Both the position numbers and the translations under genes were made by a program. Shown piece after piece: positions 13,066-19,361 of a stretch of DNA of 64,000 nt. Source of the DNA: Gammaproteobacteria bacterium (GTDB lineage Bacteria > Pseudomonadota > Gammaproteobacteria > Steroidobacterales > Steroidobacteraceae). Under the pieces are notes generated by a model. That model had not been told where the DNA came from, made no database searches, and worked only from the letters and a program-made list of their open reading frames with translations. The first letter of the stretch is position 1. Each line of letters starts with the position of its first letter. Location: positions 434,001 to 498,000 of the forward strand of contig CANGBB010000001.1 of the NCBI GenBank assembly GCA_947452065.1, written 5' to 3'.

Positions 13066-13148
13066 GCCGGCACTATATCGAATGCGTACGGCGGCCGGCC
13101 GCAGCCGTGGCGGCATTGACCGTCCGCGCGCGCTCGGCTACTGTCCTC

Positions 13149-13330
13149 AGGTGCGCTGGCTGCCCGCAAGGGCCTTGAGGGAACGCGGTTTAAAGCCGCG
13201 GCTGCCCCCGCAACTGTGACCGGCAAGTCACTATCCATGATGCCACTGGGCTCCGGCCTGGGAAGGCGGGTAGGGCAACCGAGCCGGAAGTCAGGAAACC
13301 TGGCCAGCGCCGTCGTCTAGTCGTTGGCCG
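13149..13330 (+). promoter_or_regulatory. Cobalamin (AdoCbl-type) riboswitch
   Basis: The conserved aptamer elements are present in order. The P1 helix is GCGCTGGC (13153-13160) with GCCAGCGC (13303-13310), a perfect 8-bp pairing. A hairpin CGCGG/CCGCG lies at 13184-13200. Next is the diagnostic core GCCCCCGCAACTGT (about 13204-13217). The B12 box GAAGTCAGGAAACCTGGC is at 13287-13304. Downstream, 13321-13365 contains a GC-rich region with a short GCGG/CCGC hairpin that could serve as expression platform, by terminating transcription or hiding the ribosome site. It would reduce expression of the following DUF6580 membrane protein and perhaps tspO when cobalamin is plentiful. Confidence 0.93.
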
Positions 13331-17919: not shown

Positions 17920-17995
17920 GCGGGAATAGCTCAGTTGGTAGAGCGCAACCTTGCCAAGGTTGAGGTCGCGAGTTCGAGCCTCGTTTCCCGCTCCA
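17920..17995 (+). tRNA. tRNA-Gly(GCC)
   Basis: A 76-nt cloverleaf: acceptor GCGGGAA with TTCCCGC, D-arm GCTC...GAGC, anticodon arm AACCT-TGCCAAG-type loop with anticodon GCC, T-arm with GTTCGAG and encoded CCA. It is the first tRNA of a three-gene cluster behind a near-consensus promoter. Confidence 0.97.
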
Positions 17996-18018: not shown

Positions 18019-18092
18019 GGCTAGGTGGCAGAGTGGTCATGCAGCGGCCTGCAAAGCCGTGTACGCCGGTTCGATTCCGACCCTAGCCTCCA
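18019..18092 (+). tRNA. tRNA-Cys(GCA)
   Basis: A 74-nt cloverleaf: acceptor GGCTAGG with CCTAGCC, an anticodon arm CGGCCTGCAAAGCCG giving anticodon GCA, a T-arm CCGGTTCGATTCCGA and encoded CCA. It sits 23 bases after tRNA-Gly. The Gly-Cys-Leu order is common in gammaproteobacteria. Confidence 0.96.
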
Positions 18093-18392: not shown

Positions 18393-18736
18393 GCGGACGT
18401 GGCGAAATTGGTAGACGCAGCAGACTTTGATCGCCGGAGTGCCCGCCGGGAAACCGGTGGTGCAGAACTGCCCAAACTCGGGGAACGCTGAAGGCCGTGT
18501 GCCATGCCAATCCCGAGCCAAGCCCCCGTTCTGCGGGGGAAGGTGTAGAGACTAGACGGGCAGCGCCTGCCGCGTCGGGGTGGCGTCATGCCACGCTGCG
18601 CAATGGCGAAGGGATAGTCCAGACCACGAACACCCGCTGGTGCGTCAGGCACAGCGTGTGGCGGTGAAAACCGAAGTGGCAGGAAAATCTGCTTCCTCAC
18701 AAGGGAGTGCGGGTTCGATTCCCGCCGTCCGCACCA
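18393..18736 (+). tRNA. tRNA-Leu(UAA) split by a group I intron
   Basis: The 5' exon is 18393-18427 (35 nt) and the 3' exon 18684-18736 (53 nt), giving an 88-nt class II tRNA including CCA. The acceptor stem GCGGACG pairs with CGTCCGC. The anticodon stem GCAGA/TCTGC closes the loop CTTAAAA with anticodon TAA. A long variable arm CTTCCTCACAAGGGAG-type hairpin is present, and the T-arm is GCGGGTTCGATTCCCGC. The interruption is after U34, the first anticodon base, the same insertion point as in the well-known cyanobacterial tRNA-Leu(UAA) introns. The CCA end is one base before the ATG of ccmA. Confidence 0.93.
18428..18683 (+). ncRNA. Group I self-splicing intron (256 nt) in tRNA-Leu(UAA)
   Basis: P1 can be drawn between the 5' exon ACUU plus intron UG (18424-18429) and the guide CGGAGU (18435-18440), with the required U-G pair at the 5' splice site (U18427 with G18437). 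P2 is CCGG-GAAA-CCGG at 18446-18457, a GNRA-capped hairpin. The catalytic core is recognisable: GAGCCAAGC, then GGTGTAGAGACTAGACGG (P7 5' strand and guanosine site) and GGGATAGTCC (P7 3' strand). The intron ends in G18683 before the 3' exon. The core is strikingly like the small Azoarcus tRNA-Ile intron (subgroup IC3). It encodes no homing endonuclease. Confidence 0.92.
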
Positions 18737-18737
18737 C

Positions 18738-19361
18738 ATGATGCTTCTCGAGGCTCGCAACCTGCACCTCTGGCGCGGCGAAACGCATGTGCTGCGTGGC
18801 GTGTCACTCGCGGTGCAGACTGGACAGTGTTTGCAACTCACCGGCCCCAACGGGGCTGGCAAGAGTTCGCTGCTGCGCGTTCTCTGCGGTCTGCTACTCC
18901 CGGCGGAGGGTCAGCTTTTCTGGCGCGATCTCGACTGCACCCGTGAGCTGGGGCCATTGCAGCGTGAGTGCGCCTATCTCGGGCACCTGAGCGGACACAA
19001 GGCTGAACTGAGCGCGCGCGAGAACCTGGCGTATCTCTGCGGGCTGCGGCGGCGCTGCAGCAGCAATGATCTTGATGCGGCTCTGGAGGCGGTGGGTTTG
19101 GCCGGGGCCGCCCAACATCGGCCGCTGCGGCAATTGTCCGCTGGGCAGCAGCGGCGGGTCGCGCTGGCGCGCGTCCAACTGCAGCGCTCAACGATATGGC
19201 TTCTGGACGAGCCTATTGCCAATCTGGATATCCAGGGACAGGAACTCTTCCACCGTCTGCTGGCCTCTCACCTCAAGGACGGCGGTTGCGCGGTGGTGGC
19301 CACCCATCAACCGTTGTCAGTGTCTGAATCCGCATTGGTACGACTGGAGCTGCAAGCATGA
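18738..19361 (+). CDS. ccmA: Cytochrome c maturation ABC ATPase CcmA
   Basis: A 207-residue ABC ATPase which, with CcmB, powers release of holo-CcmE from CcmC during cytochrome c maturation (System I). Walker A is GPNGAGKSS, the signature LSAGQQRR and Walker B IWLLDEPIANLD. The gene starts ATG-ATG at 18738/18741, one base after the encoded CCA of tRNA-Leu, and no Shine-Dalgarno sequence is visible because the tRNA T-arm and acceptor occupy the upstream region. The N-terminus (LEARNLHLWRGE) aligns with other CcmA proteins, so a later start is unlikely. It begins the nine-gene ccm operon and overlaps ccmB by four bases. Confidence 0.94.
   Translation: MMLLEARNLHLWRGETHVLRGVSLAVQTGQCLQLTGPNGAGKSSLLRVLCGLLLPAEGQLFWRDLDCTRELGPLQRECAYLGHLSGHKAELSARENLAYLCGLRRRCSSNDLDAALEAVGLAGAAQHRPLRQLSAGQQRRVALARVQLQRSTIWLLDEPIANLDIQGQELFHRLLASHLKDGGCAVVATHQPLSVSESALVRLELQA

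Follow-up and report, generated by a model that had tools for sequence, protein, structure and literature searches.

Group I introns of subgroup IC3 are small, lack P5abc, carry GAAA-capped P2 and P9 helices and reside in tRNA anticodon loops. The intron of the Azoarcus pre-tRNA-Ile, a tRNA of the Ile(CAU) kind, has such an IC3 core with GAAA loops, and the tRNA-Leu(UAA) introns of cyanobacteria and plastids, which we take to be IC3 as well, presumably share the insertion site of the intron described here. Vepritskiy et al. in 2002 reportedly found a tRNA-Leu(UAA) intron in a deep-subsurface gammaproteobacterium. Putative group I introns in tRNA-Leu(UAA) of Thiomargarita and Beggiatoa are mentioned in PMC4853749. 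Introns in this gene of gammaproteobacteria are known from print, and the copy in the window (the whole 64-kb stretch of DNA that was analysed) adds one more. There is nothing unusual in the object itself, a small ribozyme of the group I type within a tRNA gene; it shares tRNA, U34 site, core and approximate size with the genes of Poseidonocella pacifica (L071), Paracoccus zeaxanthinifaciens (L078) and Carnimonas nigrificans (L023). At 256 nt it is longer than the proteobacterial tRNA-Leu introns because P8 and P9 are extended, and its P8 carries CCUGCC, in contrast to the CCUAA of 21 of the 33 introns compared.

The interrupted tRNA-Leu(UAA) gene spans positions 18393-18736 of the window, exactly as an earlier sequence-only reading had placed it. 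The gene and its neighbours are laid out as follows.

17920-17995, plus strand: tRNA-Gly(GCC), upstream in the same tRNA array as tRNA-Leu(UAA)
18019-18092, plus strand: tRNA-Cys(GCA), upstream in the same tRNA array
18393-18427, plus strand: 5' exon of tRNA-Leu(UAA), 35 nt, last base U34 (exon alignment and intronless congeners)
18428-18683, plus strand: group I intron, 256 nt, final base G (core match of model R2 at 18457-18629; pair counts)
18684-18736, plus strand: 3' exon, 53 nt, with A35 and A36, long variable arm, T arm and encoded CCA
18738-19361, plus strand: ccmA reading frame, one base from tRNA-Leu(UAA), with an ABC_tran Pfam match and followed by a CcmB match

Once joined, the exons give a class II tRNA of 88 nt whose anticodon is UAA and whose CCA is encoded in the gene. 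The gene order Gly-Cys-Leu is, we assume, that of E. coli. ARAGORN misses the gene when run without its intron option; with the option it finds the 256-nt intron and displaces the anticodon to GAA. Because the anticodon calls of this program on intron-containing genes are often shifted, the exons were read from motifs and intronless genes. Two long open reading frames run across the intron and neither has a Pfam match at E 0.001, in line with the earlier statement that no endonuclease gene lies inside; the internal endonuclease gene by which homing-type, mobile group I introns are recognised was not found here. The predicted ccmA start lies a few bases past the encoded CCA (window 18734-18741), and at one related locus (L124) the A of the CCA could double as the A of the predicted ATG. 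If these predicted starts are correct, maturation of the tRNA 3' end would produce a ccmA mRNA with almost no leader. Elsewhere in the window, positions 13141-13321 match a cobalamin riboswitch with 112.9 bits.

To describe the fold, the helices P1-P9, together with three arms of the tRNA, were drawn manually on 11 aligned genes, giving 75 pairs with P7 as a pseudoknot. The elements of the intron, all on the plus strand, are listed with the behaviour of their pairs.

18424-18440, plus strand: P1, exon ACUU (18424-18427) with GAGU (18437-18440), U-G at the splice site; 4 of 4 pairs invariant in 11 of 11 rows
18441-18463, plus strand: P2 hairpin with GAAA cap; two-sided changes in 4 of 9 pairs
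18468-18563, plus strand: P3, strands 18468-18473 and 18558-18563; one pair U-A here and C-G in the other 10 rows
18478-18516, plus strand: P4, strands 18478-18482 and 18512-18516, enclosing P5; all rows paired, none varying
18517-18544, plus strand: P6 including the GAGCCAAGC segment; pair counts and RF00028 alignment
18550-18619, plus strand: P7, strands GACUA (18550-18554) and UAGUC (18615-18619); one A-U pair changed on both sides to G-C in 2 of 11 rows
18564-18608, plus strand: P8, extended in the window copy; alignment and pair counts
18624-18679, plus strand: P9 region, two hairpins, the second with a GAAA cap; alignment and pair counts

Over the 11 genes 96.6% of 804 cells are paired, a value biased somewhat toward this fold, since it was the window sequence that served as the template for the structure. 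The core helices P3, P4, P6, P7 and P8 are 90-100% paired, including the P7/P3 pseudoknot, and support for the first hairpin of P9 is poor, with 64.7% of its cells paired. Of the 18 pairs with two-sided changes, 17 lie in the intron and one in the T arm; shuffled alignments yield a mean of 5.1 such pairs and none of 500 reaches 18, and sliding the strands by 1-3 columns lowers pairing to 34-43%. The most direct covariation evidence comes from P3, from P7 (one pair A-U in nine rows and G-C in two) and from P8 (one pair G-C in 10 rows and A-U in one). P1, P4, P5 and the outer P9 are uninformative as they never vary. The U-G pair at the 5' splice site and the terminal G are present in all 11 rows, and the anatomy claimed earlier (a U-G-bearing P1, a GAAA-capped P2, the P7 strands and a terminal G) is present in the window copy. 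The intron is small, has no P5abc, carries GAAA-capped P2 and P9 and is hosted by a tRNA anticodon loop, and by this resemblance we assign it to subgroup IC3.

The Rfam group I model RF00028, proposed earlier as a check on the locus, returns 28.0 bits (E 5e-5 on 801 bases); the score lies below the gathering value of 50, and so no hit appears at default settings. The gathering score is reached in one of eight intron-bearing loci, and the seven misses, six of them in the window's own clade, include the window locus. The threshold is therefore insensitive to this subgroup, which agrees with the remark of Nawrocki et al. 2018 (PMC6125680) that a single alignment such as RF00028 seemed unlikely to cover group I diversity. 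According to PMC8172020, group I-type introns make some tRNAs difficult to detect. We used two covariance models of our own, R1 from 24 cores with the window and its kin among the rows, and R2 from 16 intron cores, none of them from the window's clade, which was built because a model holding the window and its kin would be circular. R2 matches 18457-18629 with 137.0 bits (E 6.3e-38) and finds no other match in the 64-kb window to E 10 or in the assembly to E 1. Given 13 loci, it recovers all eight relatives that have an intron as well as L395, the phage locus, and matches none of the four without one. Taken with the 17 intron pairs that change on both sides, this upholds the earlier identification: judged by sequence and fold, 18428-18683 is a group I intron in tRNA-Leu(UAA).

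By analogy with its family the intron very probably excises itself. The tRNA-Leu(UAA) would be cotranscribed with the upstream tRNA-Gly and tRNA-Cys, and the intron would fold into a small ribozyme whose internal guide GAGU pairs with the 5' exon to form P1. A guanosine bound in P7, which we take to be the guanosine site, would then cleave after U34, a mechanism taken over from the family, the anatomy being what we observe. In the same manner the released 5' exon would attack past the terminal G and yield the joined 88-nt tRNA-Leu(UAA). Free of an endonuclease, the intron would be passed on with the tRNA gene.

We then compared the descent of intron, exons and host. The largest intron tree holds 130 rows, that is 140 intron genes minus nine whose exons could not be read with confidence and one plasmid locus that was a duplicate; five loci failed the first exon/intron parse, of which L017, L055 and L089 were recovered later and L037 and L100 were left out. 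The trees rest on about 240 columns for the intron and 88 for the exons. In the 61-row intron tree the window falls in a 17-row clade (support 100/91, starred), which reappears in a 33-row tree (93/95). Its members are seven introns of the window's genus, one of the same family (G034), a plasmid gene and eight rows from the alphaproteobacterial side, namely Poseidonocella, Paracoccus, two Caulobacteraceae, one Acetobacteraceae bin and a further three genomes sampled as relatives of Poseidonocella. AU tests, in which the clades were chosen after inspection of the trees, reject the introns of the same family as one clade (p = 2.8e-5) and likewise those of the same class (p = 1.4e-5, and p = 2.6e-6 on the 130-row tree). 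G017, of the same family, carries a distant intron. Within the 17-row clade the genus is not a clade of its own, L118 being nested inside; the AU test does not reject the genus alone (p = 0.077) or the genus with G034 and the plasmid (p = 0.097) and barely rejects the genus with G034 (p = 0.041). Raw intron identity does not separate this clade: the window intron is 80-84% identical to five alphaproteobacterial tRNA-Leu introns of the clade, and 83% and 79% identical to L153 (same class) and L054, both outside it.

The exons give a similar picture. In the exon tree, where row L118 is one base off at the junction, the window lies in an 18-row clade (99/99, starred) that includes four intronless congeners, and a clade of the same-family exons is rejected (p = 1.5e-4). 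The window exons are 89-94% identical to five alphaproteobacterial genes of the clade and 73-74% identical to two same-family genes with other introns. Intron and exon trees thus both group the window with alphaproteobacterial genes. By CcmF the host is not an alphaproteobacterium: three alphaproteobacteria form one clade (100/100), and a tree that unites them with the window's genus and G034 is rejected (p = 7.9e-5). RpoB, lacking from the window's own assembly (G000), places two same-family genomes with gamma- and betaproteobacteria, and joining these to the alphaproteobacteria is not rejected (p = 0.24). A 16S search succeeded in one of 11 genomes, missing G000 and nine of the 10 others, and 16S is unusable for a host tree. 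Since intron and exon trees both reject a clade with the host's family, the whole gene seems to have crossed between classes, and we favour exchange of the entire tRNA gene rather than of the intron alone. The sequence-only reading had suggested transfer or ancient retention; the first of these is borne out and extends to the exons. The gene is patchy among the relatives of Poseidonocella too, since it is present in full length in seven of 81 such genomes (that of Poseidonocella, G426, counted); among the other six matches four introns could be parsed and L259 lies outside the clade. Genomes reached through named loci carry no kinship information.

The strongest competing explanation is that the intron alone crossed and that the alpha-like exons arose by convergence or by constraint of the anticodon arm on intron entry, which we regard as unlikely without dismissing it. 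A suitable target was available, as the genus itself contains intronless genes with this type of exon, and two Poseidonocella-relative genomes (L266 and L267) hold uninterrupted genes with a similar acceptor arm. The exons are also short, with 88 columns. Against this, the exon likeness extends to the acceptor and T arms (89-94% versus 73-74%), and the same-family exons are rejected as one clade. Exchange of the complete gene remains our preferred reading; exons and intron would together represent an allele type common to some alphaproteobacteria that at some time crossed classes, in its simplest form by a complete tRNA gene displacing the resident one.

Empty sites within the genus define the junction and the later history of the intron. 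Among 15 genomes of the genus (G000-G014), seven carry the full-length intron-bearing gene (G000, G001, G002, G003, G005, G007 and G012) and four the same tRNA uninterrupted (G006, G009, G010 and G011). One (G004) has a different type of tRNA-Leu(UAA) with a different, distant intron, in one (G014) the tRNA-Leu site is cut at a contig end, and two (G008 and G013) gave no match. The four intronless genes join U34 directly to A35 with exactly the same exon ends, and the splice junction is therefore fixed, confirming that 256 nt split the tRNA after U34. A ccmA match adjoins tRNA-Leu in the intron-bearing members and in three of four intronless loci (L130, L131 and L134); the fourth, L133, has no ccmA match within the DNA examined. 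At the G004 locus (L146, 1495-1817) the tRNA-Leu(UAA) with the distant intron points away from ccmA, and G004 is the sister of the intronless G011. Two tRNA-Leu(CAA) genes of the same family, in G031 (L139, 1381-1697) and G019 (L140, 1372-1693), also contain introns, which seem to follow C and not U at the 5' splice site.

In the CcmF tree eight genus members, the seven with the intron and the one with the site at a contig end, form one clade (95/91, starred), beside which stand G004 and the two intronless species that have a complete CcmF, G006 and G011 (100/99, starred), with G009 and G010 not included; intron and CcmF trees agree broadly within the genus. Because the intron-bearing species are one CcmF clade, long retention within the genus is supported, so that the second half of the earlier suggestion applies at this level. 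After the exchange between classes, it was apparently handed down within the genus over a long period. One clade of the genus would have kept it vertically, the sister clade comprising two species with an uninterrupted gene and one with a different tRNA-Leu and intron. Taking all of this together, we are confident that the locus represents an IC3 group I ribozyme in tRNA-Leu(UAA) that is vertical in the genus and whose whole gene probably crossed between classes.

Of 369 genomes from the class, 73 (G000 included) give an R1 match at E 0.001 or better. In the best 30 of these loci tRNA-Leu(UAA) is the commonest ARAGORN label (16), of which one (L169) has the exons of a CAU-tRNA; two further loci, the window (L152) and L155, are labelled Phe and are actually Leu(UAA). 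A pattern scan of named genomes found at least 119 stretches with varying host tRNAs in alpha-, beta- and gammaproteobacteria, Acidobacteriota, Chloroflexota and a few others. Given the 73 matching genomes, the view that group I introns are rare in tRNA genes of gammaproteobacteria does not hold, and earlier reports point the same way; neither search is a census. In one bin (L007, 5632-5671 and 6129-6167) two matches to the group I core face opposite ways, separated by some 460 bases. Introns at the same site of tRNA-Leu(UAA) occur in many proteobacteria and some Acidobacteriota, as would be expected if the intron were ancestral to both classes and had been lost or exchanged in most lineages. 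We consider this improbable, as the introns of the same class are rejected as a clade with that of the window (p-values above) and the same-family G017 has a distant one.

The need for splicing was approached through the other tRNAs of the assembly. RF00005 gives 43 matches, 42 of them above the cut-off, and ARAGORN finds 42 distinct tRNAs in the assembly pieces, with the leucine anticodons CAA, CAG, GAG and UAG. No second tRNA-Leu(UAA) was found in the assembly, which is 96% complete, and splicing is therefore probably essential; the reading of UUA codons probably depends on splicing of the window gene. A second gene could be missing because the assembly is incomplete: tRNA-Trp, tRNA-Ile(GAU) and tRNA-Ala(UGC) are absent from its tRNA list, and RpoB was not found, as opposed to 11 of 11 other genomes. 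This leaves some room for the window gene being a pseudogene with a degenerate insertion beside an active tRNA-Leu(UAA) elsewhere, an explanation to which we attach very little weight, as the window copy has its own compensated changes (U-A pairs in P3 and P9.2), an intact cloverleaf with encoded CCA and a conserved place in the tRNA array.

The core had earlier been called Azoarcus-like, which is too narrow. Azoarcus-type introns differ in tRNA and site and form a separate clade, Azoarcus being represented here by tRNA-Ile(CAU) introns (L041, L103, L135 and others), with which the window intron does not group. That it is close kin of the Azoarcus intron with a switched host tRNA is hardly credible: the IC3 core words are common to both, and tRNA-Ile(CAU)-like introns of betaproteobacteria and of the same-family G025 show the same pattern, but six of seven tRNA-Ile(CAU)-like rows form a distant, starred clade with L031 on a long branch elsewhere, and L041, L103 and L135 are 68-76% identical to the window intron versus 80-84% for the alphaproteobacterial tRNA-Leu introns of its clade.

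The plasmid member of the window's intron and exon clades lies on pCTX-M3 (L002 6001-6299, from 61823 of the plasmid onward), close to aac(3)-IId, and is a tRNA-Leu(UAA) gene interrupted by 213 nt of group I intron; it differs from the window copy (256 nt) in length and in residing on mobile resistance plasmids. The gene matches 1280 of 72,556 plasmid records, 1257 of them over at least 80% of its length, and 1273 of the 1280 are at least 99% identical over the matched part. It also matches 635 of 5426 E. coli genomes. The resistance gene aac(3)-IId is near the plasmid-type gene in each of the five records inspected, and 1228 plasmid records contain at least 80% of the segment that starts ahead of the tRNA and runs up to the edge of aac(3)-IId. 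No feature is annotated over the gene in three of three RefSeq-annotated E. coli records inspected, and none is named under the match in the 10 of 10 matches listed from the E. coli collection, whose tables do include RNA genes; those of the plasmid collection leave RNA genes out, and the absence of a tRNA annotation there is uninformative. Among the titles and abstract openings searched, which cover the literature in part, there is no report of a tRNA intron at aac(3)-IId.

Related introns occur in phages. In the viral collection (IMG/VR, L275-L394) at least 120 stretches match the core pattern; loose exon motifs and ARAGORN assign the 120 matches listed to 66 tRNA-Leu(UAA) genes, 30 stretches without a tRNA, nine that are cut and 15 with other labels. 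A stricter reading of the matches listed leaves 44 tRNA-Leu(UAA) introns, merged to 28 at a likeness of 0.95. PHROGs are matched by eight of 10 proteins from seven intron contigs, including a baseplate hub, a DNA polymerase and a DnaB helicase; the two proteins tested from L360 have no PHROGs match. The cultured Agrobacterium phage Atu_ph07 (L395, 1513-1874) contains a tRNA-Leu(UAA) with a 278-nt intron at the same site and with a related core (R2 106.7 bits), over which its record names hypothetical proteins only. The review PMC3984707 states that the phage introns then known all lay within protein-coding genes, and the partly covered titles and abstract openings that we searched hold no report of introns in phage tRNA genes. 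In Pelagibacter phage HTVC120P a capsid-annotated stretch (MH598807.1 19653-19807; H78, H99) matches the viral tRNA intron queries, as if a similar intron lay inside a protein gene. A phage origin of the window copy was considered and set aside: a search of the viral collection for a junction pattern of the window type gave no exact match, and in the intron tree a branch separates 27 of the 28 viral introns from the other rows (Atu_ph07 is not on this tree), so that phages are not demonstrated as the vehicle.

We tentatively propose, at somewhat less than even confidence, a wider scheme in which the intron-bearing gene moves whole across the classes of Proteobacteria: it would have displaced the resident gene next to ccmA in the ancestor of the window's genus, it is found on long contigs of named alphaproteobacterial isolates and at present on aminoglycoside-resistance plasmids, and phages would have a parallel lineage of such genes. 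As standard tools can miss this subgroup, a tRNA-Leu(UAA) can appear absent from a genome where it is present. The discord between intron, exons and host can be used to test whether tRNA introns travel alone or with the entire tRNA gene, and the occurrence of the same allele type near a widespread resistance gene, and of a related kind in phages, provides candidate vehicles for such transfer.
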